Of a stretch of DNA of 43,789 nucleotides, positions 1-43,532 are shown piece after piece (position 1 is the stretch's first letter; each line of letters opens with the position of its first letter). The stretch is from an uncultured Desulfovibrio sp. (lineage in GTDB: Bacteria; Desulfobacterota; Desulfovibrionia; Desulfovibrionales; Desulfovibrionaceae): NCBI RefSeq assembly GCF_944324525.1, contig NZ_CALUWS010000027.1, forward strand, positions 1-43,789, in the 5' to 3' direction. A model generated the notes under the pieces. The model had not been told where the DNA came from. It ran no database searches and saw only the letters and a list, made by a program, of their open reading frames with translations. The position numbers and the translations under genes are program-made.

Positions 1-1032
1 CGCAAGCTTGGCTGTTCACGGCTTGCCTCTCTGGAGGTAAAGCCTCCTGTGCGGCGTTACCAGTGGGAAAAGCCCGGTCTCATGTCGCATATCTTCGCGA
101 ACAAGATCAGGCTGGACGGGCGGGAATGTGTGGTGGGCTTCGTGCTGCGGGAGGACAGAACGGGGAACCGTTTCTATGACCACGAACTGACAAAAATAAT
201 TAACCCCGATTCGCTCAACACGGGCGCGTTTTCTTCCGAAGAAGGCGTAGCTCTCGTGGCCCGAGCGAACCGGGGCGATGTGATGAACATACTCCGTGAC
301 AGGCTGGGTGTCAATGACGGGACGGGGCAGGTGCTTTTTCAGGCGCGGGAAAGCGGCGCGCCCGCTGAGACATTCGGCAGGCTGCATACAGCGCAGGCGC
401 GAGCCTTTGAAACGGCTTACGGCGTTGATGCCGCCGGGCTGATGAAGCGGAGAAGTGTGGAGCTGGGGAGGGGCGACGCCCAGGGCGAGGCCCTGCATCA
501 GGCCGCGCTGTACGAACAGACGCCTCTTGGCGAGACGGCACGCGCCAGTCTGGAACGGGACATCCGCGATTTCGGCACGGCGGTGGACGGCATCGTGGCG
601 GCCGGGAAACTTCCGTCCAGCCCGGTAAAGATGCTTGGGCAGACGCCTCTGGTCATGCGCCTGTTGGGCAGGGATACCGTGACCGGCAAGGCCGCCGCAC
701 AGGGCGGCGTGTACGCCGCGCCACATGTCTTTGACGGTACGCACCCCAATATGACGCCGGAGATGTGGAAGCAGATCCCCGGGGCGCTGGCCGACCCTGT
801 GGCGGTCTTTGATTCCGACAGCCCAAAGGGCCGGGCCAATGGCGATCTGGTCTTCATGCTGGAGCTTACCGACGCCGACGGGGCGACGGTCGTCGTGCCC
901 GTGGCGTTGCAGGCGCGAGGGAAGCTAGGTGCACGTATCAATATCGTGAAGAGCGCTATGCCAAGGAAAGCGGCGGCGTTCCTGCCAACACATGGTTTTT
1001 GCGGCAGCTCAAAAAAAATGCCCGTTATGTGA
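1..1032 (+). pseudogene. Phage polyvalent protein remnant (PBECR/MuF-C-like), partial and frameshifted
   Basis: The frame is open from the window edge, so the 5' part is missing; the GTG at 49 is only an internal codon. Around residues 20-55 a stretch with GLMSHIFANKIRLDGRE and GNRFYDHELTKI resembles the PBECR-type nuclease domain at the end of large phage head or polyvalent proteins. A later block (VFDSDSPKGRANGDLVFMLE) resembles the neighbouring MuF C-terminal type domain. The likely continuation (SAYAKESGG, then NTWFLRQLKKNARYVN) is found one frame away, so a single base appears lost at about 955-957, after AGC at 952-954. The original frame then ends at 1032. Family naming is from motif memory and moderately sure; that it is broken is clear. 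The homologous region continues to about 1480 in the next entry. Confidence 0.6.
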
Positions 1033-3440
1033 ACGGGCAGAAGTGGAAACATTGGCGGGACATCGGCTCCGGAGCTGATTCTCCTTTGGTTGTACCCTCC
1101 AACGCTTCCGGTAATACAGTATACACAGACGCAGATCTTGTCAATTTGCGGCAGGGCAATCCGACGCTCTACCAGTCGGAAGTTTCAGGCGATTCCCCAG
1201 CCCTGCGCGCCCAGGTCAATCTTGACGCTGAAACGGCCGCCATCCGCATCTTCAAGGGCGCTGACCTTTCCTCTATCCCGCACGAGTCCGCCCACATCTT
1301 TGTGGACGACTTGCGGCGTGTGGCTGCCGACGACGGGAGCATGGCCCGCGAGAGCCTGCGCTCCGATCTGGAGCAGGCCGGCATGGACGCAACCCCCTTT
1401 GCGGGTATTTTGTCCGGTGAGGTGGATGCGGAGAGGGCGCGCGCCATGCTGCGGGATGCGCGGGAAGAGCAGGCCATAACGCATATCGATCAGATCCTGG
1501 CCGTGGCCGAAGACGTCGGTCAGCCGGAGATGGTCAGCGTCTGCCGCAGGGCCCTGGCCATGTATCACTTCCTGAGCCGGCGGCGAAAGGAGGCGCGGCG
1601 CATCCTGGCGCTGGACGGCAGGGGCGGGCCGGCGCTGCCGCTGACGGATCCGCGGATGCTGGAGATGCTGGTCAGTCTGGAAAAGGACGGGCCGCCCATT
1701 CCCGGCTATGGCCTGCGGGAGATCATGAGCGAACTGGAGAAGGGGCCAAGCCGCCTCCTGCGCGGGGTATGCCTGCGGCTGCGGGCTCATTTTCCTGAAA
1801 CGCCGGCAAGCGCACGCGGCAGGCTGCTGCGCGAAAGCTGCGAGGAGCTGGCGCGCACGGGCAACGTGCGGGAGGAACTGCTGTCCGTCAGGATGTTGGT
1901 GCAGGCGCTGGAAGAAGAGGGCAGGCCGGAGGATATCCTCGCGTGGAAGCAGAGGGAGAAGACCCTGCTGGCCTCCTGGCGGAGCGATCGCCGGTCCAAG
2001 GAAAAGCCGGGGGAACATGCGGCCTTCCCGGTCTGCGGGCCGTGCCTCAATGCCTTTTTGCGCATCCGGCCCGTCACGCGCGGCAGCGCCATCCGCCATG
2101 TGGTCGGGACGGTGCAGCGGGAGCTGGGCGCGCAACGGGCCATCCTGCTGCGCCTCTACAACGACGAGCGCATGGACTATCTGGAGGCCGTCAACGTCAG
2201 CCTCACCGAATTCGAGGACGCGTCGTTCCACACCATACGCCGGGCGCTTCTGGAGCTTTTGCAGTCCTCGGGCGCAGGGGCGGTCTTTTTCCCGCTCAAT
2301 GATAACCGCAGCGCCTTTCTGCTGGACATCGACGAACAGACCCGCTGGCTGCTGTATCTGGACAGCGAGCTGCCCGGGAGCCTCTTTTCCCGCATCGGCC
2401 AGACGGAGGGCAGCGCCTTCGCCGCGGTGCTGTCCTCGGAGTTCCGCGCGGCCTGGCATCTGCCGGGGGAGGGACGCCGGGCGGGACAGGCGCAGGACGT
2501 GACGCCTTATTTCGGCATCGACATGGACAGGGTGCTGGAACAGGCCACGGAGGCCCTGGTGTCCGATGCGCCCCTGATCATCCACGGCGAGACCGGCACG
2601 GGCAAGGAACAGATGGCGCACTTCATCTACACGCGCGGCGACTACAAGGGGGCGTTCGTGCCCGCCCAGCTGTCCAGCCTGCCGGAACAGCTGTTTGAAA
2701 GCGAGATGTTCGGTCACGAGCAGGGGGCCTTTACGGGCGCACACCGCCGCAAGATGGGCTTCATGGAGCTGGCCCACGACGGCGTGCTCTTCCTGGACGA
2801 GATCGCCGACATTTCCCCCCTGATCCAGGTCAAGCTTTTGCGGGCCCTGCAGGAGAAGCGCTTTACCCGCGTGGGCGGGGTGCAGCAGCAGTTTTCCAAT
2901 TTTCGCCTCATTTCCGCCACCAACAAGGACATCTGGCAGGAGGTGCGCGAGGGCCGCTTTCGCGAGGACCTCGCCTACCGCCTGTGCGTCATCCCGCTGG
3001 AGCTGCCCCCTCTGCGCGAGCGGCCGCATGATCTGGAGGTGCTGATCCGGCAGCTGCACACGCATTTCCTGCGCAAGTACGGCAAGGCGGAAAAGCCGGT
3101 GCGGGCGGAGGACATGCGCCGCCTGCTGGACTATGGCTGGCCCGGCAATATCCGCGAACTGTACAGCATCATGGAGCAGTATGTGCTGTTCGGCTGCTTT
3201 CGCTTTCGCGCGGCGGCGGAGGACAGGCCGGCGGCCCCCTGTGCGAGCGAGGCCGGCGAGTGCTTCGCGGATCTGCCCAGCATGGAGGACATGCAGCAGC
3301 GGTACATCCGTATGGTGCTGCGGCGCACAGGCGGAAAGATCTATGGCCCGGACGGCGCCGCGGCCATCCTGGGGATGACGAAGTCCACCCTTTACCAGAA
3401 GATGAAAAAATACGGCATCAGTCACAGGCACGACGATTGA
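999..3440 (+). CDS. Sigma-54-dependent transcriptional regulator, N-terminus fused to phage metallopeptidase-like remnant
   Basis: The C-terminal two thirds is a bacterial enhancer-binding protein that uses ATP hydrolysis to open sigma-54 promoters. The AAA+ domain has Walker A GETGTGKE near residue 530, the sigma-54 contact loop EQGAFTGA near 574, Walker B GVLFLDEIADI and the arginine-finger region FREDLAYRL. A Fis-type helix-turn-helix (AAAILGMTKSTLYQKMKKYG) ends the protein. Residues about 190-350 are helical and TPR-like, and about 355-480 look GAF-like. The first 160 residues do not belong to this family: they continue the phage polyvalent protein and carry HESAH, an HEXXH zinc-peptidase motif. 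The junction is near 1480, with no stop between. The true start is uncertain: the ATG at 999 lies inside phage-derived sequence, and ATG 1530 and 1560 are in-frame alternatives with weak ribosome-binding sites. No target promoter is visible next to it. Confidence 0.75.
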   Translation: MRQLKKNARYVNGQKWKHWRDIGSGADSPLVVPSNASGNTVYTDADLVNLRQGNPTLYQSEVSGDSPALRAQVNLDAETAAIRIFKGADLSSIPHESAHIFVDDLRRVAADDGSMARESLRSDLEQAGMDATPFAGILSGEVDAERARAMLRDAREEQAITHIDQILAVAEDVGQPEMVSVCRRALAMYHFLSRRRKEARRILALDGRGGPALPLTDPRMLEMLVSLEKDGPPIPGYGLREIMSELEKGPSRLLRGVCLRLRAHFPETPASARGRLLRESCEELARTGNVREELLSVRMLVQALEEEGRPEDILAWKQREKTLLASWRSDRRSKEKPGEHAAFPVCGPCLNAFLRIRPVTRGSAIRHVVGTVQRELGAQRAILLRLYNDERMDYLEAVNVSLTEFEDASFHTIRRALLELLQSSGAGAVFFPLNDNRSAFLLDIDEQTRWLLYLDSELPGSLFSRIGQTEGSAFAAVLSSEFRAAWHLPGEGRRAGQAQDVTPYFGIDMDRVLEQATEALVSDAPLIIHGETGTGKEQMAHFIYTRGDYKGAFVPAQLSSLPEQLFESEMFGHEQGAFTGAHRRKMGFMELAHDGVLFLDEIADISPLIQVKLLRALQEKRFTRVGGVQQQFSNFRLISATNKDIWQEVREGRFREDLAYRLCVIPLELPPLRERPHDLEVLIRQLHTHFLRKYGKAEKPVRAEDMRRLLDYGWPGNIRELYSIMEQYVLFGCFRFRAAAEDRPAAPCASEAGECFADLPSMEDMQQRYIRMVLRRTGGKIYGPDGAAAILGMTKSTLYQKMKKYGISHRHDD

Positions 3441-22087: not shown

Positions 22088-22232
22088 AGAGCGGTTTTTA
22101 GGTTGAAGCGCTTGGCGTCCCTAACGATACGGCCTGTCGTTTCGCGGAAAAAACGCGGTGTTCCGCTTGGTTTGGGCCGGGCGGCGCTGCGCCGCCGCCT
22201 CGTGTGTTATCTTTGTCAAAGGTAAAACGCTC
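22088..22232 (-). repeat. Interspersed palindromic MITE-like element, copy A
   Basis: About 145 bp whose reverse complement aligns with 31082-31225. Shared landmarks are the GGCGGCG...CGCCGCC hairpin, the GCGGAAAAA...TTTTTCCGC-type hairpin (imperfect here) and GATACGGCCTG. The ends are AGAGCG and CGCTC, an imperfect version of copy B's terminal repeats. It has no coding potential. It lies between nrfA and the convergent polyferredoxin gene. Confidence 0.7.
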
Positions 22233-25687: not shown

Positions 25688-26134
25688 ATGAGCGCGCAAT
25701 TTGTCGGAATGAGAGCCTATGCGGACGCCATGCGTCATTTCAGCACCGTGGAAAGTTCCCTGCAGCAGGGGATGCCCGTCAGCAAGGAGACCCTGTTTGC
25801 CAAGACGCTGGACCAGAGCCTGCTGCGCGACAGCGTGGACCGTCCTGAAAATTTCGGCGCCCAGGGCGACTTCATCAAGATGATGGGGCAGGAGCATACC
25901 CGCCTGGCGCATACCAATGATTTTGCGGAGACCCTTTCCGATTCCCTGAACCGGGTCAACGAACTGCAGACCGAAAAGGCCAACGCCATCGACGCCTTTG
26001 CGTCCGGCCGCAACCAGAACGTGCATGAACTCATGATCACCATGCAGAAGTCCAGCATGGCCATGAAGCTGACCACCGCCGTGCGCGGCAAGGTGCTCGA
26101 AGCCTACAAGGAACTGACCAAGATGCAGTTCTGA
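25688..26134 (+). CDS. fliE: Flagellar hook-basal body protein FliE
   Basis: Adaptor between the MS ring and the rod, 148 aa. AAAGGAG lies 6 nt before the ATG. The C-terminal half is typical FliE: the SDSLNRVNELQTEKANAIDAF helix, HELMITMQKSSMAMKLTTAV, and the final VRGKVLEAYKELTKMQF. The protein is about 40 residues longer than common FliE (roughly 105 aa), with the extra length in the N-terminal half. The operon ends at the terminator just downstream. Confidence 0.93.
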   Translation: MSAQFVGMRAYADAMRHFSTVESSLQQGMPVSKETLFAKTLDQSLLRDSVDRPENFGAQGDFIKMMGQEHTRLAHTNDFAETLSDSLNRVNELQTEKANAIDAFASGRNQNVHELMITMQKSSMAMKLTTAVRGKVLEAYKELTKMQF

Positions 26135-26167
26135 TTTTCTCCCTGGCAACTTTTGTTCCGAAGCGCG

Positions 26168-26200
26168 AAAAACAGGTTGGTTCCGGCCGGCCTGTTTTTT
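26168..26200 (+). terminator. Rho-independent terminator of flgBC-fliE
   Basis: AAAAACAGG pairs with CCTGTTTTT around a GC-rich loop and continues into a T-run. It lies 33 nt past the fliE stop. Confidence 0.85.
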
Positions 26201-26555
26201 GTCGTTGTGATCCGGCGGGAGCGCGTGACGGCATCCCTGCCGCGACCCCGCCACGGCAGGACGGCAGGTGGGGCGGCCAGCTCTCCGACTGGAGACTGTC
26301 GGACATGCGGCGTCTTTGCCGGATGCCGACACGGCGTCAGGGCATTTTTCGTTGGTCCCGGTCTGTTTGCCTGCGTGGCCGCAGGAGAATCGCCCGGGGG
26401 CAAAGGCTGGCGTCAGAAAGATGTCTGCCGTGGCTGGCGGGAAAGGGAAGGAGAGTGTCGCGGGCAGGGCCATACAGGCCGGGTAGGTGTGACGGCAGGG
26501 GCCCCGGGGTCGGGCGGCGGACAGGCTGGAAAACTCTGCGCCGTGCATGACGGGA

Positions 26556-26590
26556 GCGAAGGGAACAGAGACGCGCCCTGTCCCCTTCGC
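26556..26590 (-). terminator. Hairpin after the SsuA-like binding-protein gene
   Basis: A 13-bp stem (GCGAAGGGAACAG and its near-perfect complement, one wobble pair) with a 9-nt loop lies 37 nt past the minus-strand stop at 26628. No T-run follows. Confidence 0.5.
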
Positions 26591-26627
26591 CCGGAAACGC
26601 CCATCGGCGTAACGACAGGGGGGCCGT

Positions 26628-27677
26628 CTACTTGCTTTCCTGCCGCAGGGCCCGCAGGAAGCGATCCGTCACGGCGTCCGGCGCGGCATGACGTGCCGTC
26701 GTGCCGGGATTCATCCGCTCACTGAAGGCGACGATCTCCCGCAGCTGCGCGCCGATGCGCCCGCCGTCCTTGCCCGCGAAGAGCTCCAGCTGCTCGGCAA
26801 GGGAAAAGACGGGATGATCGGTCAGATCCGCCACCGCATCATCCACGCTCAGGCTCCTGTGCATCCATTCCTCGGCAAAGCGGACATAGTCGGGCGCCAG
26901 CGCCCGCGGGCCCTGCCGGCGGATCTCCTCCACCACACGCAGGTAGACCTGCAAAAAGGCCTGTACGGCAGCGGGATCACGTTCGGCAAACTCGCGGTCC
27001 GCCACGAGCAGGACGGGCTGCAGCGCGCCGCAGTCCTGCGAGCGGGCCGCGACCTGGAAGCCCATGTGCTCCGCCTCCCGGGTATAGGGCGCCCAGATGG
27101 ACAGGATGTCGCCATAGCCGTTCTTGAAGACCCCGAGCGCCGGCGTGGGATCGAGTTCCTCGATGACGACGTCCTTTGCCGAAAGGCCCAGCGCCGCCAG
27201 CCAGCGGTCAAGCAGGTAGCGGGCCGATGTCCGCTTGGGGCAGAGCACGATCTTTCCCTTGACGGATGCGGCCGAGCCGAACACATTCGGGAAATCGGGA
27301 TTGCCGCCCTTGTGCCGCAGGACGGGGCTGTCCGGCCGCACGAGGATGGCATTGGCCCGGGACTCGTCATTGGCGATGCCGATGACGGCGATGCGGTCGC
27401 TCATGGTCGCCTGCATGGCGGGCACGGCGCCGCAGCCGGCAATGGCCCAGTCATAGGCCTTGATATTCTCGATGAGGCTCTTGCCGGAGTCGAAGCGCAG
27501 CATGGAGATGTCGAGACCGGCCTCCTTGTCCCAGCCTTTTTCCTTGGCGTACCAGACAAGAAAGGCCTCGTGTTCGCCAAGCCATGCCGTGCGCAGAGGG
27601 GTGGCCGCCGGGGAGGGGGACGCCTGCAACAGGCAGCACAGGAGCGCGCAAACTGCCAACAGTGCCGGGAATCGCAT
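26628..27677 (-). CDS. SsuA/NMT1-like ABC substrate-binding protein
   Basis: Periplasmic binding protein of 349 aa. The start at 27677 has AAAGGA about 8 nt upstream and begins a signal peptide (MRFPALLAVCALLCCLLQAS, cleavage after PAA). Family-like features are LRTAWLGEHEAFLVWYAKEKGWDKEAG, a common opening of nitrate/sulfonate/taurine/thiamine-precursor binding proteins, then YDWAIAGCGAVPAMQA, and the GKIVLCPKRTSARYLLDRWL lobe. No cognate permease or ATPase is next to it, so it is an orphan or uses a distant transporter. It is divergent from the PrpR-like activator with 190 nt between, suggesting shared control. The ligand is unknown. Confidence 0.75.
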   Translation of the reverse strand: MRFPALLAVCALLCCLLQASPSPAATPLRTAWLGEHEAFLVWYAKEKGWDKEAGLDISMLRFDSGKSLIENIKAYDWAIAGCGAVPAMQATMSDRIAVIGIANDESRANAILVRPDSPVLRHKGGNPDFPNVFGSAASVKGKIVLCPKRTSARYLLDRWLAALGLSAKDVVIEELDPTPALGVFKNGYGDILSIWAPYTREAEHMGFQVAARSQDCGALQPVLLVADREFAERDPAAVQAFLQVYLRVVEEIRRQGPRALAPDYVRFAEEWMHRSLSVDDAVADLTDHPVFSLAEQLELFAGKDGGRIGAQLREIVAFSERMNPGTTARHAAPDAVTDRFLRALRQESK

Positions 27678-27867
27678 AACACAATCCTTTGCGTTGAAGG
27701 TGAAGAGGAAGCCGCGAAGCTTCCGGAAATCGCCCCCCCGAAAGCAAAAAATATTCCATACTAGCTGAAAGATCCCGTTTTGCAAAGCCCGAAATGGCGG
27801 CGGACGCTGCGCGCGGACGAGCGGGAAGGGCCGCGCCCGGCGCGCGGCCAGAGGGAGAACGGTGCAT

Positions 27868-29811
27868 ATGCCGTCGACAAGCGAATTCCAGATGACGCTC
27901 ATCGGCCCCTACAAGGGGGTGGATGCCGGCATCTTCCGTCAGGTGGCGCGGGAGCTGCACTGCCATCTGCAGTTTGTGGATGCCGTGTTCGATGAGGCCG
28001 TGGAGCCGGCAAAGCGGCTTTCGCCGGAAACCTGTGACGTGGTGCTCAGCCGGGGCGTCACGGTGGATGTGGTCAAGGCGCATACCTCCATCCCCGTGGT
28101 GCCCATCGATCTGTCGGCCTGGGACGTGCTGCAGGTGCTGCAGCCTTACGCCGGGCGGGTTCGCAAGGCGGCCTTCTTCCGCTACGGCCAGCCTCTGCCG
28201 GGGCTGGCGCGCGTGGGGCAGGCGCTCGGCATGGAGATCAGCGAATACCTGTACACCACGCGCAATCAGATGCGCCTCAAGCTCATGCAGCTTTCGCCGG
28301 TGGACGTGGACCTGTTCGTGGCGCGCGGCAGCCTCATCTGCCAATGGGCGGACGACAGGGGCTTCGCCACGCTGGAGATCATCGATGGCGAGATATCGGC
28401 CAGGCGGACCCTGTTCGAAGCCGTCAACGTGGCCCATGCCCGGCGGACGGAGCGGCAGCGCGTCGCCCGGCTGGAGGCCATCCTCAATGCCGTGGAGGAA
28501 GGCATCGTCGCCTACGATGCGCGCGGGCAGGTGAATCTTGTGAATCCTGCCGCCGAGAGCCTGCTCAAGTGCAGCGGGAAGAAGGCCGTCGGCCGGCATG
28601 TGCGCTCGATCATGCCCGGGGCCTTCCCGCCGGACCGCATAACGGCCCAGGAGCCCGAACATGGCCGCATCCAGACCATACGGGGCACGACGCTCGTCAT
28701 CAACCGTATCCCCATCCTCTTCCAGGGGCGGAGCATGGGCACGGTCTGCTCGTTTTCCGACGCCCGCCGCATTTCCCGCGCCGAAGAGAAGCTGCGCACC
28801 AGCCTGAAAGCCAAGGGCTTCACCACGCGGTACAGCTTCGAGGACATCTGCACCTGTTCGCCGTCCATGCAGCACCTCAAGGAGATCGGCAGGCTGTATG
28901 CCTCCACGAACGCGAGCCTGCTCATCTGCGGCGAGTCCGGCACCGGCAAGGAGCTTTTCGCGCAAAGCATCCATGCGGCCAGCGAACGGGCGGACAAGCC
29001 CTTTGTGGCCGTCAACTGCGCTTCCATACCGGAAGGGCTGCTGGAAAGCGAGCTGTTCGGCTACGAGGAGGGGGCCTTTACCGGCGCACGCCGCCAGGGC
29101 AAGGCCGGGATGTTCGAGCTGGCGCATACGGGGACGCTCTTCCTCGACGAGATCGGGGATCTGCCGCTCCCTCTGCAGGGACGCCTGTTGCGCGTCCTGC
29201 AGGAGCGGGAGCTCGTACGCGTCGGCGGCACGCAGGTGGTCCATCTTGATGTCCGCGTGCTCTGCGCCACGCATCAGGACTTGCGCAGCCTCGTGGAGGA
29301 GGGGCGTTTTCGCGCGGACCTCTTCTACCGCATCAATGTGCTCTCCCTGTATGTGCCGCCGTTGCGCGAGCGCCCGGAAGACATCATGGAGCTTGCCGTC
29401 ACGTATCTTGAGGCCCATCTGGACAATCCCCCGCCGGACGAGGAGCTGCGGCGTCAGCTCAGGACGCCGCTGCTGCGCCACACCTGGCCCGGCAACATCC
29501 GGGAGTTGCTCAGCATCATGGAGCGTCTGGCCATCGTGGCCAACCATATGCGTCAGGTGGACGACTGGGCCGGGCTGCTCGCCCGGATCTGGGAAGTGTC
29601 CGTACAGGAAGCCGGCCAGAAGGAGTACGGCGGCGAGCCGGTCACGCTCCGGGAGCATCTGGCCCGCGAGGAGGCCCGCTTTATCGACCGGACCATCGAC
29701 GTCTGCGGCGGCGACCTCGGCCGGGCCGCCGCCCGGTTGGGCATCAGCCGCATGACGCTTTGGCGCAAGCTGCACCCGAAGGAGGGGAGGGAAGACGAGG
29801 CGGAAATGTAA
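27868..29811 (+). CDS. PrpR-like sigma-54-dependent activator with PAS domain
   Basis: Enhancer-binding regulator of 647 aa. ATG 27868 is chosen (GAGGGAG upstream); a GTG two codons earlier is possible. Residues about 1-190 resemble the PrpR_N/propionate-activator sensory domain (DVVLSRGVTVDVVKAHTSIPVV). A PAS domain follows (about 200-310, RLEAILNAVEEGIVAYDARG). The AAA+ domain has Walker A GESGTGKE near 355, GAFTGA near 401, Walker B TLFLDEIGD near 423 and FRADLFYRINVL. The Fis-type helix-turn-helix (GRAAARLGISRMTLWRKL) closes the protein. It sits directly upstream of tctCBA, with a dyad and a -24/-12 promoter in between, so it is the probable activator of that operon. The inducer is likely the transported acid; this is inferred. 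Confidence 0.9.
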   Translation: MPSTSEFQMTLIGPYKGVDAGIFRQVARELHCHLQFVDAVFDEAVEPAKRLSPETCDVVLSRGVTVDVVKAHTSIPVVPIDLSAWDVLQVLQPYAGRVRKAAFFRYGQPLPGLARVGQALGMEISEYLYTTRNQMRLKLMQLSPVDVDLFVARGSLICQWADDRGFATLEIIDGEISARRTLFEAVNVAHARRTERQRVARLEAILNAVEEGIVAYDARGQVNLVNPAAESLLKCSGKKAVGRHVRSIMPGAFPPDRITAQEPEHGRIQTIRGTTLVINRIPILFQGRSMGTVCSFSDARRISRAEEKLRTSLKAKGFTTRYSFEDICTCSPSMQHLKEIGRLYASTNASLLICGESGTGKELFAQSIHAASERADKPFVAVNCASIPEGLLESELFGYEEGAFTGARRQGKAGMFELAHTGTLFLDEIGDLPLPLQGRLLRVLQERELVRVGGTQVVHLDVRVLCATHQDLRSLVEEGRFRADLFYRINVLSLYVPPLRERPEDIMELAVTYLEAHLDNPPPDEELRRQLRTPLLRHTWPGNIRELLSIMERLAIVANHMRQVDDWAGLLARIWEVSVQEAGQKEYGGEPVTLREHLAREEARFIDRTIDVCGGDLGRAAARLGISRMTLWRKLHPKEGREDEAEM

Positions 29812-29850
29812 CACAAATGTTAAGTTTTGTTGCTGAGGATAACATTTGTG
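29812..29850. promoter_or_regulatory. Perfect 11-bp dyad, probable enhancer site
   Basis: CACAAATGTTA (29812-29822) and its exact inverse TAACATTTGTG (29840-29850) are separated by 17 nt and lie immediately after the activator stop. This is 70-105 nt upstream of the sigma-54 promoter, the usual place for an upstream activating sequence. It could also fold as a terminator of the activator gene, but no T-run follows. Confidence 0.65.
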
Positions 29851-29917
29851 ATATGCGGACAAGGCGCGCCAGACGCGCGAAGAGGAGGGAACGGGGCGAA
29901 AATCCCGGGAAAACGGA

Positions 29918-29933
29918 TGGCATATTTCTTGAT
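29918..29933 (+). promoter_or_regulatory. Candidate sigma-54 promoter of tctCBA
   Basis: TGGCATATTTCTTGAT matches TGGCAC-N5-TTGCW in all but two positions (T for C, and A for the C of -12 GC), with correct 10-nt spacing. It is about 100 nt before the tctC start. Confidence 0.55.
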
Positions 29934-30034
29934 AGACAGGAAACGGCGCGCCGGGGCGAGTGGAGCCGCGGTGCGCCGGACCCCGTGCGGCGGCGTCTGC
30001 CGCGGCACTCCCTATCATGCAAGGATGGACTGCC

Positions 30035-31033
30035 ATGAAAAAACGCCTCGTTGCCACGCTGCTACTTGCCTGTGCCCTGTGCCTCGGCATCACGACCCAT
30101 GCCCGGGCCGAGTATCCCTACGACAAGCCGCTCAACGTCATCGTGCCCTTTGGTCCGGGGGGCGGCGTGGACATTGCGGCACGCATTCTTGCCGATTATT
30201 TCCAGCAGAACTACAACATCACCATCAACGTCATCAACAAGCCCGGCGGGGCGCAGGCCATCGGCATGAACGAGATGCTCCGCGCCCGGCCCGACGGCTA
30301 TACGGTGGCCTTCCCCGGCTTCAGCTCGCTGGCCACCACGCCCAAGCTGACCAACGTGGGCTATTCGCTCAAGGACATCAAGCCCGTGGCCCACATCGCC
30401 GTCATGGAGCCTGTCCTGACCACCCACAAGAGCTCCGGCATCGACACCTGGGAAAAGTTCATCGAGGCCGCCAAGTCCAATCCGGACGGCACCGTGTACG
30501 GCACCACCGGGGCCATCTCCACGCAGCGCCTCTACATGACCAAGCTGCTCGAGCGTTTCTACAAGGGCTTGACCATCCGTCACGCCGCCTACACCAGCGG
30601 TCATGAGGTGAGCACGGCCCTGCTCGGCAAGCATATCACCGCCGGTTGCCAGGTCCCCTCCAATATCCTGCCCTATGTCGCCTCCGGCGACTTCAACGTC
30701 ATCGCCATCGCCCGCAAGGAGCGCCGCGCCGACCTGCCCGATACGCCTACGTTCCGGGAACTGTTCGCCGGTCAGCTGACGCCGGAAGACGAAAAGTGGA
30801 TCGACCTCGGCGCCTGGCACGGCTTTGTCGTGTCCAAGAAGGTCAAGGACGACCGCATCGCCAAGCTGCAGCCGCTGATCGAAAAGGCGCTCAAGGATCC
30901 CGGCGTCATCGAAAAGTTCGAAAAGATCGGTCTGTCCGCCGACTACCTGCCCGCCAAGGAATTCGGCGACCGCATCAAGTCCTCGTCCGACCTCGCCGAC
31001 GAAGTGCTGGCCGGCCGCAAGTCGCTTGACTAG
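30035..31033 (+). CDS. tctC: Tripartite tricarboxylate transporter binding protein TctC
   Basis: Periplasmic binding protein of the TTT family, 332 aa. The start at 30035 has AAGGATGG upstream and opens a signal peptide (MKKRLVATLLLACALCLGIT, cleavage after ARA). The mature sequence has the family opening PLNVIVPFGPGGGVDIAARI, then INVINKPGGAQAIGMNEMLRARPDGYT, both typical of TctC/BugT proteins. Family members bind citrate, other carboxylates, aromatic acids or amides, so the ligand is open. It is the first gene of the tct operon and is separated from tctB by a 144-bp repeat element. Confidence 0.9.
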   Translation: MKKRLVATLLLACALCLGITTHARAEYPYDKPLNVIVPFGPGGGVDIAARILADYFQQNYNITINVINKPGGAQAIGMNEMLRARPDGYTVAFPGFSSLATTPKLTNVGYSLKDIKPVAHIAVMEPVLTTHKSSGIDTWEKFIEAAKSNPDGTVYGTTGAISTQRLYMTKLLERFYKGLTIRHAAYTSGHEVSTALLGKHITAGCQVPSNILPYVASGDFNVIAIARKERRADLPDTPTFRELFAGQLTPEDEKWIDLGAWHGFVVSKKVKDDRIAKLQPLIEKALKDPGVIEKFEKIGLSADYLPAKEFGDRIKSSSDLADEVLAGRKSLD

Positions 31034-31081
31034 CGCTGACGGGGCGGGACGCTGCGGCGTTTCGCCCCTTTTCTTCCGACG

Positions 31082-31225
31082 AGAGCATTTTGCCTTTGAA
31101 AAAGGCAAAATGCGAGGCGGCGGCACAGCGCCGCCCGGCCGAAAGTGAGCGGAAAAACCGCGTTTTTCCGCAAACGCCAGGCCGTATGATTTGGAACGCG
31201 AAGCGGTTCAAACGGAAAATGCTCT
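31082..31225 (+). repeat. Interspersed palindromic MITE-like element, copy B
   Basis: 144 bp bounded by perfect 10-bp terminal inverted repeats, AGAGCATTTT (31082-31091) and AAAATGCTCT (31216-31225). Inside are a 12-bp perfect hairpin (31086-31112, CATTTTGCCTTT), a GGCGGCG...CGCCGCC hairpin, and a 9-bp GCGGAAAAA...TTTTTCCGC hairpin. No target-site duplication is obvious. It sits between tctC and tctB and could tune relative expression. Confidence 0.8.
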
Positions 31226-31237
31226 AAAGGTTCACCC

Positions 31238-31720
31238 ATGAAGAACAAGACCGACTTTTTCATCGGACTGGCCCTGCTCGTCTTTTGCGGCGTCATGGCG
31301 CATCAGATCTACCTTCTGCCGCCGCCCGCGGGCAACGATTTCTTCACGGCCGGTTCCTTCCCCACCGGCGTGACGGCGGCGCTGGCCGTCCTTTCCCTGC
31401 TGCTGGTGTTCCGCTCGCTGCGTGCCGCGCCGGGGGGGGCAGCGGCCTGCTGGCCGGAGCGGGAGATATTCGTCCGCGTCGCCCTCATGGGCGTCTGGAT
31501 CATCCTTTATGTGATCGGCTTCATCATGCTCGGCGACATGGCCTATGATGCCGAATGGCCGGAAGGGACCGGCTTCACCCTGTCCACGCTGGCCTTCCTC
31601 GTGGGCGCGCAGTTCATCACAGGCTACCGCAATATTTTCAAGATAGTGCTCATCTCCATAGCCATCGCGGCCTTTCTCTATGTCGTTTTCGCCATGCTCT
31701 TCAAAGTTCCGCTTCCATAA
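31238..31720 (+). CDS. tctB: Tripartite tricarboxylate transporter small membrane subunit TctB
   Basis: Small membrane subunit of the TTT transporter, 160 aa, with about four hydrophobic segments (FFIGLALLVFCGVMAHQIY at the start, then residues about 45-60, 85-105 and 115-155). The N-terminal pattern matches TctB, the least conserved component. AAAGG, just outside the end of repeat copy B, serves as ribosome-binding site about 8 nt before the ATG. tctA follows after 12 nt. Confidence 0.85.
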   Translation: MKNKTDFFIGLALLVFCGVMAHQIYLLPPPAGNDFFTAGSFPTGVTAALAVLSLLLVFRSLRAAPGGAAACWPEREIFVRVALMGVWIILYVIGFIMLGDMAYDAEWPEGTGFTLSTLAFLVGAQFITGYRNIFKIVLISIAIAAFLYVVFAMLFKVPLP

Positions 31721-31732
31721 AGGGGATATGCC

Positions 31733-33241
31733 ATGATCGACTCGTTTCTTGCCGCCTTCGGCTCCGCCTGTAGTCTGGAAGCGCTCATCGCCAACTTCGT
31801 CGGCGTCGCCCTCGGGATCATCTTCGGCGCGCTGCCCGGTCTGACCGCCGTCATGGGCGTTGCCCTGCTCATCCCCCTGACCTTCGGCTTTGCGCCCGTC
31901 ATCTCCTTTTCCGCGCTGCTCGGCATGTATTGCGGGGCCATCTACGCCGGCAGCATCACCGCCATCCTCGTGGGGACGCCGGGAACGGCCGCGGCCGCGG
32001 CCACCATGCTGGAAGGGCCGCAGTTCACGGCGCGCGGGGAGTCGCTCAAGGCGCTGGAGATGACCACCATCGCCTCCTTCATCGGCGGCATCTTTTCCTG
32101 TCTCATCCTGGCCACGGTGGCCCCGCAGCTGGCCACCTTCGCCCTGGACTTCAGCGCGCCGGAATACTTCTCTCTCGGGATCTTCGGGCTGACCATCGTG
32201 GCCACCCTGTCCGAAGGGGCCCTGCTCAAGGGCTGCATCGCCGCGCTGCTGGGGATGCTCATTTCCATGATCGGCATGGACCCCCTGTCGGGGAACCTGC
32301 GCATGACCTTCGACTCCTCCAACCTCATCAACGGCGTCTCCCTCATCCCCGCGCTCGTGGGCCTGTATGCCCTGTCGCAGGTGCTGATCACGCTGGAGGA
32401 CGTCTTCCGGGGCAAGCGCCTCTCCACCACCCAGATCTCGCGCAAGGGCATCTCCCTCTCCGAGCTCTGGGCCAATCGTGCGGCCCTGCTGCGCGGCTCC
32501 ATCATCGGCACCTTCATCGGCATCGTGCCGGCCACGGGCTCGGGGACGGCCTCCTTTGCCGCCTACAGTGAGACGAAGCGGCACTCCAAGCACCCGGAAT
32601 GCTTCGGCAAGGGCTCGCTGGAAGGCATCGCCGCCACGGAGTCGGCCAATAACGCCGTGACCGGCGGCGCGCTCATCCCGCTGCTGACCCTTGGCGTGCC
32701 GGGCGACGTGGTGACGGCCGTCATGCTCGGCGCGCTCATGATCCAGGGCATGACGCCCGGCCCGCTGCTGTTCCAGGAGCAGGGCACGCTGGTGTACAGC
32801 ATCTTCATCGCCCTGTTCATCGCCAACTTCTTCATGCTGGCGCTGGGCTACTATGCCGTACGTCTGCTGGCCAAGATCGTGCTCATCCCCGGCGGCGTCC
32901 TGATGCCGCTGGTCACCACCTTGTGCGTGGTGGGCGGCTATGCGCTGAACAACTCCAATTTCGATCTGGCCGTGATGCTCGCATTCGGCATCCTGGGCTA
33001 CATCATGACCAAGGCGCGTTTCCCGCTGGCCCCCCTGTTGCTGGCCATGATCCTTTCCGGCATCATCGAAACCAATTTCCGGCGGGCGCTCAGCATCTCC
33101 AATCAGGATTATTCGGTGTTCTTCACGCGTCCGGTCTGCGCGGTCTTCCTTGCCATCAGCCTGTTCATCCTGATCAAGCTGCTCTGGAAGGAAGTGCGCA
33201 AGGCCCGCACCCCCGAGGCGCAGGCGGCCGACCGGTCGTAG
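31733..33241 (+). CDS. tctA: Tripartite tricarboxylate transporter large permease TctA
   Basis: Large integral membrane subunit of 502 aa with about twelve helices. Family signatures are GALPGLTAVMGVALLIPLTF near residues 28-47, YAGSITAILVGTPGTAAAAA near 68-87, and the repeat-like GIVPATGSGTASFAAYSETKR with ATESANNAVTGGALIPLLTLG in the second half. It works as a secondary transporter with TctB and TctC. AAAGGGG precedes the ATG by 6 nt. The amidohydrolase 165 nt downstream may belong to the same pathway. Confidence 0.95.
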   Translation: MIDSFLAAFGSACSLEALIANFVGVALGIIFGALPGLTAVMGVALLIPLTFGFAPVISFSALLGMYCGAIYAGSITAILVGTPGTAAAAATMLEGPQFTARGESLKALEMTTIASFIGGIFSCLILATVAPQLATFALDFSAPEYFSLGIFGLTIVATLSEGALLKGCIAALLGMLISMIGMDPLSGNLRMTFDSSNLINGVSLIPALVGLYALSQVLITLEDVFRGKRLSTTQISRKGISLSELWANRAALLRGSIIGTFIGIVPATGSGTASFAAYSETKRHSKHPECFGKGSLEGIAATESANNAVTGGALIPLLTLGVPGDVVTAVMLGALMIQGMTPGPLLFQEQGTLVYSIFIALFIANFFMLALGYYAVRLLAKIVLIPGGVLMPLVTTLCVVGGYALNNSNFDLAVMLAFGILGYIMTKARFPLAPLLLAMILSGIIETNFRRALSISNQDYSVFFTRPVCAVFLAISLFILIKLLWKEVRKARTPEAQAADRS

Positions 33242-33251
33242 CGGCCCGTTT

Positions 33252-33281
33252 GGCCGTATCCGTTTCCGGCGCGATACGGCC
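33252..33281 (+). terminator. Hairpin after tctA
   Basis: GGCCGTATC and GATACGGCC form a perfect 9-bp stem with a 12-nt loop, 11 nt past the tctA stop. There is no T-run; it may attenuate or protect the transcript before the amidohydrolase. Confidence 0.45.
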
Positions 33282-33406
33282 GATCCTCCATGACACCACG
33301 CGCCGGAAGGGGAGGGGCGCTCTCGTGCAAGGGCGGGAGCTTTCCCCCTCCCTGTCGGGAGCCTCCCGGCCCTGCTCCGTCCACCCATCACCCAAGGAGG
33401 GCAACC

Positions 33407-35056
33407 ATGCAGCAGTTTGCAACCCACATTTACCGTAACGGCGTCATCCTGACGATGGATTCCCGCTGTTCCGTCGCTTCCTGCCTGGCCGTCAACGGCG
33501 AGACCATCCTTGCCGTCGGTTCCGAGCAGGATGTGGCGGCCTTCCGCAGCGCCGCGACCGAGATCGTGGACCTGCGCGGGCAAACCATGCTGCCCGGTTT
33601 TTACGACGGTCACAGCCACTTCATGCGCGCCGGCATGTACAACCGTTATTATCTGGATCTGAACCCCTATCCCATCGGCGACATCCGCACGCATGACGAC
33701 ATCCGCCGCAAGGTGCGCGCGGCGCTGGAAAAACTGCCGGAAGGGGAGTGGCTGCTCTGCTCGGGCTATGACGATACCGCCGTGGCGGAGGCCCGTCATT
33801 TCACCCTGGCCGAACTGGATGAGCTCGCTCCCCGGCATCCGCTGTTCCTGCGGCATATCTCCGGCCACCTTGCCCTGTGCAACAGCCGGGCCTTTGCCGC
33901 CGCCGGCATCGACGGCCGGACGCCGAACCCGGCGGGGGGCGTGTTCCGGCATGACGGGGACGGCGGGCTGACCGGTCTTGTGGAAGAGCCCGCGGCCATG
34001 GAGATGGTCCTGCATGCCGCGCCGCAGATGACCGAGGAAAAATGGCTCGGCGCCGTGGAGCGCGCCACGGCCGATTATGTGGCCAAGGGCGTGACCACGG
34101 CCCATGACGGCGGCGTGACCACGGCCATGTGGCAGAACTACATGACCGCCCATGCGCGCGGCATGCTCCGGAACAGGGTGCAGCTGTTGCCCAAGCACGG
34201 GCAATATGATTTTTCGCTGGCGCCGACCTCCCGCTGCGGCGCGCCGCTCACGCCGGACGGCATGCTGAGCATGGGCGCGGTCAAGCTGTTCCAGGACGGC
34301 AGCCTGCAGGGCTATACCGGTTATCTGACCAATCCCTACCATGTGCAGCAGGCGGGCGGCGGGGACGATCTCTGGCGCGGCTACGCCATCTATCCGCTCC
34401 ATGAGCTCATCGAGATCGTGACCGGCTATCACCGGAAGGGCTGGCAGGTGGCCATCCACGGCAACGGGGACGCCGGCATAGACGATATCCTGACGGCCTA
34501 TGAGGCCGCACAGAAGGACTATCCCCGCACGGACGCCCGGCATCTTGTCATCCACTGCCAGACGGCGCGTGAAGATCAGCTGGACCGTATCGCCCGGCTC
34601 GGCGTGGTGCCCTCGTTCTTCGCCGTGCATACCTACTACTGGGGCGACCGTCACCGCGACATCTTCCTTGGCGAAGACCGCGCGGCCCGTATCGACCCCC
34701 TGCGCAGCGCGCTGCTGCGGCATATCCCCTTCACCTGCCACAACGACACGTCGGTGACGCCCATCGATCCGCTGCTTTCCGTCTGGTCGGCGGTCAACCG
34801 GCTGACTTCCTCCGGCAAGGTGCTTGGCCCGGCCCAGCGGATCCCCGTGCTGGACGCCCTCAAGAGCATCACCATCTGGGGCGCTTACCAGTTCCACGAA
34901 GAGCGGACGAAGGGCAGTCTGGAACCCGGCAAGCTGGCGGATATGGTGGTCCTCGGCGAAAATCCGCTGACCGTCGCGCCGGAAACGCTCAAGGATCTCC
35001 CCATCACGGCGACCATCGTGGGCAACAGGCTCGTGTACGGCTCGCTGGCGGGCTAG
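33407..35056 (+). CDS. YtcJ-type metal-dependent amidohydrolase
   Basis: Amidohydrolase_3 family enzyme of 549 aa. The start at 33407 has AAGGAGG 6 nt upstream; a longer reading begins in non-family sequence. The metal-binding GFYDGHSH gives the paired His near residues 69 and 71. Other family features are the AVKLFQDGSLQGYTGYL segment, the HGNGDAGIDDIL block, HLVIHCQTA, and HNDTSVTPIDPL near the C-terminus, then GSLEPGKLADMVVL. It has no signal peptide, so it acts in the cytoplasm. Placed after tctCBA, it may hydrolyse an imported N-acyl or amide compound; this is inferred from position. It ends before a strong terminator. Confidence 0.88.
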   Translation: MQQFATHIYRNGVILTMDSRCSVASCLAVNGETILAVGSEQDVAAFRSAATEIVDLRGQTMLPGFYDGHSHFMRAGMYNRYYLDLNPYPIGDIRTHDDIRRKVRAALEKLPEGEWLLCSGYDDTAVAEARHFTLAELDELAPRHPLFLRHISGHLALCNSRAFAAAGIDGRTPNPAGGVFRHDGDGGLTGLVEEPAAMEMVLHAAPQMTEEKWLGAVERATADYVAKGVTTAHDGGVTTAMWQNYMTAHARGMLRNRVQLLPKHGQYDFSLAPTSRCGAPLTPDGMLSMGAVKLFQDGSLQGYTGYLTNPYHVQQAGGGDDLWRGYAIYPLHELIEIVTGYHRKGWQVAIHGNGDAGIDDILTAYEAAQKDYPRTDARHLVIHCQTAREDQLDRIARLGVVPSFFAVHTYYWGDRHRDIFLGEDRAARIDPLRSALLRHIPFTCHNDTSVTPIDPLLSVWSAVNRLTSSGKVLGPAQRIPVLDALKSITIWGAYQFHEERTKGSLEPGKLADMVVLGENPLTVAPETLKDLPITATIVGNRLVYGSLAG

Positions 35057-35135
35057 CCCGTACGCCCGGGGACCGGCAGGCGGCACAAGCCGCGTGTCCG
35101 TCCCCGATGCGGACAGCGCGGATAACGGCAAAACA

Positions 35136-35168
35136 GGGGGAGCGTTGGCGGACGCTCCCCCTTTCTGT
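35136..35168 (+). terminator. Rho-independent terminator after the amidohydrolase
   Basis: GGGGGAGCGT pairs perfectly with ACGCTCCCCC across a 6-nt loop and is followed by TTTCTGTT. It begins 79 nt past the stop. Confidence 0.85.
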
Positions 35169-35171
35169 TCC

Positions 35172-35480
35172 CTGCGCGGGCCGCCATTCGGTCGCGCTCT
35201 GCTGTCGATGCTCGTAGCTTCCTCCGTCGCAACGAGCACGGCCCTGCGGGCCGCCTTTCGGTCGCGCTCTGCTGTCGATGCTCGTAGCTTCCTCCGTCGC
35301 AACGAGCACGGCCCTGCGGGCCGCCATTCGGTCGCGCTCTGCTGTCGATGCTCGTAAGGCTTCTGCGTCGCCCAACGAGTACGGCCCTGCGGGCCGCCAT
35401 TCGGTCGCGCTCTGCTGTCGATGCTCGTAGCTTCCTCCGTCGCAACGAGCACGGCCCTGCGGACCGCCTTTCGGTCGCCG
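35172..35480. repeat. 70-bp tandem repeat block
   Basis: The unit anchored by CCGCCATTCGGTCGCGCTCT recurs at 35181, 35251, 35321, 35394 and (diverging) 35464, giving periods of 70, 70, 73 and 70. Each unit holds two short inverted repeats, CGGCCC-TGC-GGGCCG and GCTCGT...ACGAGC. The third unit carries a 3-nt longer variant of the second loop. All six frames stay open over long stretches, but nothing resembles a protein. The block is not CRISPR, since it has no unique spacers. Confidence 0.85.
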
Positions 35481-35857
35481 TCGGCGCGGGAGGGCCCAGC
35501 CATTTCGCAGCGAAGCGGGGCATGACGCTCTCGCCATCTTTCCCCCGGGCCTCCCATCCCTTCCCCAGCGCGTTTTTGCCGGGAGAAGAGTCCGGGACAC
35601 GAGGCAAGCCTGCCACAAACGGCAGGCGGAGGACTGTCCGCCGCATCCGCCACGTCTTTTTTCTCGACCTCCCGGCGCAAGTTTGGCATGCTCCCCTTCG
35701 TATCTTCCCCGTCGCAGGCCGGCCCTCCGGCTCCAGCCCGCGGCCGGGGACAGGAAAGGCGCGCCGCCGCAGGCCCTTCCGCCACGGCAGGCGGAGCCTG
35801 TCCGCCGCAGCGTTGAGCCTGCGTCCCCGGACGGGAAGGAAGCAACAGGAAGAGAGT
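35481..35857. other. Intergenic region before the SIS gene
   Basis: 377 nt without a recognisable gene. It contains a GCCTGCC/GGCAGGC hairpin (35609-35628) and a pair of near-identical 24-nt segments starting GGCAGGCGGA at 35621 and 35786, each able to fold by GGCGGA/TCCGCC pairing. No promoter was recognised. Confidence 0.5.
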
Positions 35858-36535
35858 ATGGACGCTCTGATAGAAACGTTCTGGCGGGATCTGTGCGCGC
35901 GCTGTCCCCAGTGGCAGGGAGCTGCCGCCGCCTTTGGCGCGGCCGTGCGCCTGCTGGCGGAGTGCGTTGCCGCCGGCGGGAAGATCCTGCTGTGCGGCAA
36001 TGGCGGGAGCGCCGCCGATGCCGAACATATCGCCGGGGAGCTGATGAAGTCCTTTCTGCTGCCGCGGCCGCTGCCGGAGGCCTTCCTCCGCCGCGCCTGG
36101 AGCGCCTATCCGCAACAGGCGGCGGAGCTGGCGCGGCTGGAAGGGGGCATAGCGGCCATCCCGCTGGTTTCCGGGGTGGCGCTGCCCACGGCCTTTGCCA
36201 ATGATGTCGACGGACGTCTGGCTTTCGCGCAGCAGGTCTATGCGCTGGCCCGCCCCGGCGACGTCGTCTGGGGCATAAGCACCTCGGGCAATTCGGCCAA
36301 CGTGAACCAGGCCCTGCGCACGGCGCGTCTGCTCTCCTGCCGGACGCTGGGACTCACCGGCAGGGACGGCGGGGAGATGGCCGGGCTGCTGGATGTGGAG
36401 CTGCGCGCGCCGTCCTCGCGGACGCCGCAGGTGCAGGAGCTGCATCTGCCCATGTACCACGCCCTTTGCGCCTGTCTGGAAGCTGTCGTCTTCGGCGGCC
36501 CGGCACAGGCGGCCGCCGCGACGGATGCGGGATAA
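35858..36535 (+). CDS. SIS-domain sugar-phosphate isomerase (GmhA-like)
   Basis: Protein of 225 aa with one SIS domain. The start at 35858 has AGGAAGAG upstream; the long frame starting in the tandem repeats is rejected. The phosphosugar-binding loops are LLCGNGGSAADAEHIAGELMK (about 45-65) and WGISTSGNSANVNQAL (about 135-150), as in GmhA, which isomerises sedoheptulose 7-phosphate for heptose synthesis. It is longer than typical GmhA (about 190 aa), with an insert around FLLPRPLPEAFLRRAWSAYP. The C-terminal QELHLPMYHALCACLE helix carries the conserved region near the active-site His. With the following glycosyltransferases it points to surface-glycan synthesis, though the exact sugar is unsure. 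Confidence 0.75.
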   Translation: MDALIETFWRDLCARCPQWQGAAAAFGAAVRLLAECVAAGGKILLCGNGGSAADAEHIAGELMKSFLLPRPLPEAFLRRAWSAYPQQAAELARLEGGIAAIPLVSGVALPTAFANDVDGRLAFAQQVYALARPGDVVWGISTSGNSANVNQALRTARLLSCRTLGLTGRDGGEMAGLLDVELRAPSSRTPQVQELHLPMYHALCACLEAVVFGGPAQAAAATDAG

Positions 36536-36732
36536 GACGCACGGCACAGCGGCCCGGCGCGTTTCGCAGCTGGCGGCGGGATAAAGAACGCATTGTATTT
36601 GTTTGATATTTTTCAGATGTTCCGTTAGAGGGAAAAAACGGCTATGCTGCCTGCCGGCATGCCAAGCGGCTGCCTGGCCGGAAAAGTTCTCCAGCCGGGA
36701 CGGCGGCGGGCGGGCATGTCGTGGGGACGCAG

Positions 36733-43462: not shown

Positions 43463-43532
43463 TGCGAGCGGCGGCACAGCGCCGCCCGGCCAAACGTAAG
43501 CGGAAAAAGTGCGTGTCATCTTTTTCGTGAAA
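43463..43532 (+). repeat. Interspersed palindromic element, partial copy C
   Basis: TGCGAG followed by the CGGCGGCACAGCGCCGCCC hairpin, CCGGCCAAACGTAAGCGG and AAAAAGTGCG align with the centre of copy B in the same orientation. The outer parts and terminal repeats are missing or unrecognisable; the match may continue, interrupted, to CTTTTTCGTGAAA. Confidence 0.7.

Follow-up and report, generated by a model that had tools for sequence, protein, structure and literature searches.

Loci in which a sigma-54 enhancer-binding protein (EBP) is linked to an amidohydrolase gene and a carrier are already known in Desulfovibrio (PMC4641369), and tripartite tricarboxylate transporters (TTT), PrpR-type regulators and YtcJ enzymes are likewise known. 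The DVU2827 regulon of Desulfovibrio vulgaris Hildenborough comprises an EBP, the amidohydrolase DVU2820, a PFL-like enzyme and a C4-dicarboxylate transporter, and the locus of this type in D. desulfuricans and D. piger has an MFS carrier (PMC4641369). Here we analysed a 43,789-nucleotide contig of an uncultured Desulfovibrio sp. (NZ_CALUWS010000027.1; hereafter the window), in which an EBP gene is followed by tctCBA and the gene of a metal-dependent amidohydrolase. As in the DVU2827 regulon, the EBP gene lies beside candidate sigma-54 promoters for an amidohydrolase-family gene and an exchangeable carboxylate carrier; however, the carrier is a TTT instead of a C4-dicarboxylate or MFS transporter, and we found no PFL-like gene in the genome. 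DVU2820 and the window enzyme are likened by description, not by sequence.

TctC, TctB and TctA are all encoded in the window, in this order, as in known TTT systems (TctCBA, and SlcHFG for sulfolactate; PMC5812351); unlike these, the window TTT is linked to an amidohydrolase and to an orphan ABC-type binding protein. The initial annotation of this DNA had found the combination unfamiliar, which holds in part. A search of the open-access literature did not find a TTT-amidohydrolase combination in Desulfovibrio and, for an orphan binding protein with a TTT and an amidohydrolase, gave only Bordetella quinolinate binders; yet EBP-linked amidohydrolase-transporter loci have been published for Desulfovibrio (PMC4641369), and a parallel set is present elsewhere in the same genome.

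Gene content and conservation of the locus

We consider it fairly probable, from the sequence, that the locus is a sigma-54-controlled uptake-and-hydrolysis cassette for an acidic N-acyl conjugate, either an N-acyl amino acid or an N-acyl taurine. The PrpR-type activator would probably sense a small acid, bind a pair of palindromes located where its own gene ends, and switch on the sigma-54 polymerase at a -24/-12 element about 100 bp downstream, leading to expression of tctCBA and the amidohydrolase. TctC and TctAB would import an acidic, amide-bearing compound, which the cytoplasmic binuclear-metal amidohydrolase would split; the products would be an acyl acid and an amino compound carrying an acidic head group (an amino acid or taurine). 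A divergently encoded solute-binding protein (SBP), probably co-regulated through its own sigma-54 site, would collect the same or a related ligand. The elements of the locus are the following:

26628-27677, minus strand: gene of an orphan periplasmic SBP, NMT1_2 / SsuA-TauA-like (Pfam NMT1_2), divergent
27743-27758, minus strand: sigma-54-like site of the SBP gene, TGGAATATTTTTTGCT, score 12.2/14.2
27868-29811, plus strand: gene of the sigma-54 EBP, with PrpR_N, PAS, AAA+ (GAFTGA) and Fis-type helix-turn-helix (HTH) domains (Pfam)
29807-29824, no strand: predicted operator 1, TGTAACACAAATGTTAAG, 12/14 to TGTAACA-N4-TGTTACA, overlapping the activator stop codon
29838-29855, no strand: predicted operator 2, degenerate, 9/14, 31 bp from operator 1 centre to centre
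29918-29933, plus strand: -24/-12 element of tctC, TGGCAT-N5-TTGAT, TGGCATATTTCTTGAT, with GA at -12
30035-31033, plus strand: tctC, periplasmic receptor of the TTT (Pfam TctC, 123.8 bits)
31041-31068, plus strand: terminator-like hairpin directly 3' of tctC (terminator scan)
31081-31230, no strand: one copy of a structured, dispersed ~147-bp repeat between tctC and tctB (blastn), accessory
31238-31720, plus strand: tctB, small membrane subunit (Pfam TctB, 51.4 bits)
31733-33241, plus strand: tctA, large permease (Pfam TctA, 491.9 bits)
33407-35056, plus strand: gene of the metal-dependent amidohydrolase, Amidohydro_3, YtcJ type (Pfam, 345.6 bits)

All the parts named in the initial annotation (the activator, an 11-bp dyad, the -24/-12 element, tctCBA and the Amidohydro_3 gene) are thus present. 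The activator is a sigma-54 EBP by its Pfam matches (Sigma54_activat, 230 bits; HTH_8, 35.3 bits) and the GAFTGA motif read in its sequence, and we found one RpoN gene in the genome. Its description as PrpR-like is borne out by the PrpR_N, AAA+ and Fis HTH domains that it has in common with PrpR, the propionate regulator; however, its score against the PrpR equivalog TIGR02329 (440.8 bits) lies below the curated cut-off of 499.2, so that by this cut-off it is classed as PrpR-like but not as PrpR, and no prp genes were recognised beside it. In a related locus, L030, a gene of the PEP_mutase/isocitrate-lyase family precedes an activator that is a 45% relative of that of the window. The solved proteins closest to TctC by sequence include carboxylate binders, and the best solved match of the tctC product is 2dvz, the glutamate binder BugE, listed in PMC5812351.

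The gene order is conserved in two close relatives, a locus of Candidatus Bilophila faecipullorum (L026) and a locus of genome G007 (L029). The L026 order includes the SBP gene, with values of 71% for the EBP, 81% for TctC, 68% for TctB, 90% for TctA and 80% for the amidohydrolase. In L029, where an MFS gene follows, the EBP-tctCBA-amidohydrolase order is kept at 53%, 66%, 56%, 82% and 68%, respectively. The surroundings are not the same: in the window, flagellar rod genes follow beyond the SBP gene, a FlhB gene lies beside L029, and the open reading frames (ORFs) outside the unit in L026 have no clear counterpart in the window. As the order is kept while the flanks differ, the unit appears to behave as a cassette. 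An ORF upstream in L026 was considered as an integrase and dropped, its only match being to DUF6538.

The initial annotation had proposed a self-contained locus at 27868-35056; it is not self-contained, because the divergent orphan SBP gene outside these limits belongs to the tctCBA-amidohydrolase set. The SBP has a syntenic counterpart in L026 (72-73% identity) and matches three solved relatives, binders of aliphatic sulfonates, taurine and nitrate, but its SsuA_fam score (79.7 bits) is below the cut-off of 163.5; a two-sequence alignment gave no usable predicted structure (mean pLDDT 38). No permease or ATPase gene of an ABC-type sulfonate/taurine importer was present in the ORFs flanking 26628-27677, the rest of the window not having been searched. 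Elsewhere in the same genome (L164), two homologous SBPs are encoded together with a full ABC set, and orphan SBPs might share an importer of this kind. Homologous SBPs stand beside a complete ABC importer in both L164 and L171, and the L171 cluster also holds an amidohydrolase gene.

Related cassettes in the family and beyond

The amidohydrolase had 34 matches in 20 of the 288 family genomes surveyed, at a threshold of E 1e-120 and with no more than four candidates scored in each; this genome has four. Ten complete matches of at least 55% identity make up a close set; a partial copy in Bilophila faecipullorum (L087, 7158-8159 of contig C16 of genome G089; 333 aa, 80% identical) was left out of it. 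Within 10 kb of these ten genes, an EBP gene was found in 9, the tenth contig being cut short on that side, and an SBP gene in 7, with one more locus cut by a contig end; the carriers were a TTT in 5, a GltS-like carrier in 3 and an MFS carrier in 3. SBP homologues are common (69/288 genomes), and at about 7 SBP genes per 2.9 Mb the chance of one lying within 10 kb is about 5%, which puts 7/10 at about 1e-7, a rough figure since the loci are related. Among 21 matches viewed out of the 23 less similar ones, short contigs included, an SBP gene lay within 10 kb in 2 and a GltS-like gene in 5. Of the remaining two, the match in genome G072 has, by coordinates, an SBP gene beside it. The other, in G086 (contig C113), adjoins a metallo-bile-salt hydrolase (metalloBSH) gene and has no SBP gene in its 6 kb.

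The regulators also vary. Among the nine close loci with an EBP, three have the PrpR type and the other six an EBP of about 1000 aa; four of the latter were scanned and gave no PrpR_N match, and the remaining two are 83% and 90% identical to scanned ones. The second cassette of the same genome (L080, contig C6, 32000-50000) has an SBP gene and the gene of a 1038-aa EBP divergent from an amidohydrolase gene (56%) and a GltS-like carrier gene. In genome G272 (L091, 4427-11480), an MFS-tctCBA-amidohydrolase-SBP operon is divergent from the gene of a ~1000-aa EBP. Finally, two related TTT loci, L030 and L169, lack the amidohydrolase gene and have an M20 peptidase gene among their TTT genes instead, which points to amide-bond substrates. 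On this comparison, the window set represents one form of a modular family, in which the carrier (TTT, GltS-like or MFS), the regulator type and, in these two TTT loci, the hydrolase are exchanged; if so, these would be import cassettes that swap carrier, sensor and hydrolase around a fixed core. In a sample of 395 genomes of the phylum, 9 had a match to the amidohydrolase, and the 8 besides this genome lie outside its family, at no more than 45% identity; a homologue on a Cupriavidus plasmid has 47% identity.

The amidohydrolase and its candidate substrates

The assignment to Amidohydro_3 of the YtcJ type is accompanied by a complete set of metal ligands (H69, H71, K293, H351, H383 and D447), with H154 as the catalytic His. 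All six ligands are kept in 31/31 aligned short sequences, the window enzyme included; in 10 of the 31 (L045-L051, L059-L061) the catalytic His is replaced by Trp, the metal ligands being kept. The window enzyme has 549 aa and starts with MQQFATHIYRNG; no signal peptide was seen in its N-terminus by eye, and it is probably cytoplasmic. Of the proposals in the initial annotation, a sigma-54 activator beside its likely target operon, in an order that is kept, is supported, and so is a probable import with cytoplasmic hydrolysis.

The closest functionally described enzymes are the secreted metalloBSHs of B. wadsworthia, which also has ten short relatives, 5/10 of which weakly cut taurocholate (PMC13081902, a preprint of April 2026). 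Those with weak activity belong to a cluster of their own that is uncharacterised, and the window enzyme is alike in size to the short enzymes H2-H11 of that study. With BwBSH1/2 it has in common the Amidohydro_3 domain, the six metal ligands, the catalytic His and the four proposed sulfonate contacts: S194, Q381, N443 and H544 of BwBSH1 correspond to S152, Q301, N353 and H408, and H196 to H154. This numbering was mapped through a Bilophila homologue (L104), by named residues and spacing, and not on the BwBSH1 sequence itself. In contrast to BwBSH1/2, the window enzyme is short and lacks a visible export signal and the C-terminal domain of these proteins of about 900 aa; the 19 metalloBSH homologues that we fetched have 869-1049 aa, and three fetched homologues are 35-37% identical to it in the aligned core. 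Across the 31 short sequences, the four contacts are kept in 29, 30, 31 and 30, respectively. BSH activity of B. wadsworthia looked constitutive (PMC13081902), which speaks against assuming induction there.

These likenesses bear on a narrower form of the reading, namely that the substrate is an N-acyl taurine, such as N-acetyltaurine, and that the enzyme is the cytoplasmic counterpart of a secreted metalloBSH, cutting it into an acid and taurine that feeds sulfonate respiration through Xsc; we regard this as possible but doubtful. The matching contacts and catalytic His favour it; in 3igh, a solved YtcJ relative, the four contact positions are occupied by different residues (HMMER alignment), and the metalloBSHs fall among the short enzymes in a tree (fork support 88/87) that is midpoint-rooted and has two very long branches. 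BwBSH1 cuts other N-acyl taurines too and, as stated, some of the short relatives cut taurocholate (PMC13081902); carriers of the TTT type for sulfolactate are on record (PMC5812351), and the SBP resembles SsuA/TauA. The genome moreover has Xsc and a metalloBSH homologue (75% to the query), metalloBSH matches being found in 14/288 genomes of the family. This homologue (L166, 4546-7365, contig C56) lies beside an EBP gene and has a sigma-54-like upstream site scoring 12.7.

However, the contact residues derive from docking in the preprint (PMC13081902), and the same residues are present in plasmid homologues of Cupriavidus, Leisingera and Ruegeria (3 examined of 272 records), which adjoin genes of M81 peptidases and of either a TctC-type receptor or an ABC transporter encoded by several genes, and no recognised taurine gene. 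The residues may thus hold an acidic head group in general, and a taurine-only reading, weakened by these plasmids, was not adopted. Nor is Xsc enriched: it is present in 11/20 genomes with the enzyme and in 8/20 without (Fisher p 0.53), the latter being hand-picked from the same genus. Neither a PFL-like glycyl-radical enzyme nor, consequently, IslA was found in the genome.

An N-acetyltaurine amidohydrolase, NaaS, is reportedly present in Cupriavidus necator. NaaS is also named for Ruegeria (PMC9870897); its proposed reaction is the same as that considered for the window enzyme, the two being likened by reaction only, not by sequence. Extending the taurine reading to the whole set of loci, gut Desulfovibrionaceae would have a cassette family that captures host or dietary amide conjugates, built of a constant short amidohydrolase of the metalloBSH lineage and usually an orphan SBP, with exchangeable carrier, sensor and (M20) hydrolase; the window version would free taurine from N-acyl taurines for Xsc and complement the metalloBSH of the same genome. 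Taken jointly, these parts make a speculative proposal that we hold to be rather doubtful.

Alternatively, the enzyme would cut a cyclic or different amide (a lactam, imide or carbamate) and the operon would be for a carboxylate that has nothing to do with acyl conjugates. The greater part of the amidohydrolase superfamily is uncharacterised (PMC13081902), and carboxylate binders are among the solved proteins nearest to TctC; but the pocket matches an enzyme with demonstrated activity on N-acyl taurines and not 3igh, and the exchange for an M20 peptidase in two loci favours linear amides, so that we consider this alternative unlikely. Should the broader reading of a cassette for acidic N-acyl conjugates be right, an uncharacterised branch of gut amidohydrolases would be linked to defined carriers and inducible control, with a short list of substrates (N-acyl taurines and N-acyl amino acids) for bacteria of which some relatives produce H2S from taurine in the gut.

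Predicted operators and sigma-54-like promoters

As the initial annotation had it, the activator stop codon (TAA, 29809-29811) is followed directly by a perfect 11-bp dyad, with arms CACAAATGTTA (29812-29822) and TAACATTTGTG (29840-29850) and a 17-nt spacer, and the distance to the promoter is enhancer-like, the site lying about 100 bp upstream of -12. Dinucleotide shuffling of the intergenic stretch produced inverted repeats of this kind (11 bp, perfect, spacer of 3-40 nt) in 6/5000 shuffles. Across the whole window there are 9, where 20 shuffled windows averaged 1.1, and perfect dyads as such are therefore not rare in it. The full dyad occurs at a single place in the 2.9-Mb genome and is absent from L026 and L029, whereas an 18-bp palindrome inside it is kept in both. 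The dyad, contained in operators 1 and 2 together, is thus better read as two copies of this palindrome, that is, as paired, shorter predicted operators. The best sites score 12/14 in the window, 14/14 in L026 and 13/14 in L029, and each locus has at least one weaker second copy (9/14, 12/14 and 11/14, respectively); the three best scores together were reached in 0/5000 shuffle rounds.

That the dyad is instead a transcription terminator or a chance repeat, with an operon that is read constitutively, is very improbable: as RNA the dyad is able to fold (-16.2 kcal/mol), but its z is -1.7 and 12/200 shuffles fold equally well; no T run follows it and the terminator scan lists nothing there, so that a terminator was rejected; the palindrome, if not the perfect dyad, is conserved in both relatives, and the shuffles rarely give a perfect dyad; and a simple consensus scan of 29600-31300 gave no sigma-70-like site. 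A genome-wide operator search with up to 3 mismatches gave 29 places per strand against 28 for a reversed-pattern control and is thus uninformative for a wider regulon. Eight hits of this search were inspected, and all 8 sit in one longer dispersed repeat of this genome containing GTTAACACAAATTTTACA-like sequence (L068, L071-L075, L077, L079), perhaps the end of an insertion element.

The -24/-12-like promoter that had been proposed is located at 29918-29933, and its TGGCAT-N5-TTGAT element is kept in both relatives, 101 nt upstream of tctC in the window, 100 nt in L026 and 32 nt in L029. It is the only exact match in the genome; allowing 1 mismatch raised this to 55 hits, of which most were not examined, while the control gave 5. 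The spacing and most other positions fit the sigma-54 consensus. The site of the SBP gene has GC at -12, and AGGAACGCTTTTTGCT stands at the same place in L026. The window's two sites score no higher than the best of 114 control upstreams (mechanical ORFs, including a few target genes, tctC itself among them) and therefore rest on conservation. Related loci give stronger sites, above all 114 controls: 13.2 and 13.7 for the SBP and amidohydrolase genes of contig C6 of the same genome, 13.7 for the SBP gene of L163, 13.2 for the MFS gene of L086 and, in L091, the full score of 14.2 for a site that precedes the first gene of the operon, MFS, by 35 nt. If the cassette reading is right, tctC would have a sigma-54-like promoter with a conserved non-canonical -12.

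Several observations weigh against the sigma-54-controlled cassette. The operator consensus was picked post hoc, with the sites already known, and operator 2 is weak (9/14). The tctC element is not the canonical GG-N10-GC but GG-N10-GA in the window, L026 and L029, and in having A at -12 it differs from tGGcacg/tTGCt, the consensus published for Desulfovibrio (PMC4641369). Its score is 11.7/14.2, when 10/114 controls score at least 11.5 and the highest 12.2; the SBP site, at 12.2, equals this highest control and is not exceptional alone. Several target genes have poor sites: tctB and SBP of L169 (both 10.5), tctB of L030 (9.2), the SBP genes of L164 (10.7 and 10.0), L165 (10.0) and L090 (10.2), and the L081 site scores 11.0. 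No SBP gene was found in the 15.5 kb fetched for L029. Lastly, the hairpin and the structured repeat between tctC and tctB mean that one transcript is not assured.

The hairpin 3' of tctC is also present in L026 and was not found in L029 by the same terminator scan; an excess of tctC over tctBA message would suit a binding protein. The ~147-bp repeat has a strong predicted fold (z -5.4) and gave 62 blastn rows in the fetched DNA, overlapping loci being counted more than once. It is not present between tctC and tctB in L026 or L029, where the gene gap is about 60-80 nt, and no Rfam match was obtained at gathering thresholds in 26000-36600, the copy at 31081 included. Copies or fragments lie in the window at 31081-31230, 22095-22232 and 43463-43514, and many others in loci of this and other genomes. 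Directly 3' of the amidohydrolase gene, a 70-bp unit is present in 4.3 tandem copies (35176-35478). Elsewhere in the window, the ORF at 999-3440 (plus strand) is 39% identical over 305 aa to a Bilophila enhancer-binding protein.

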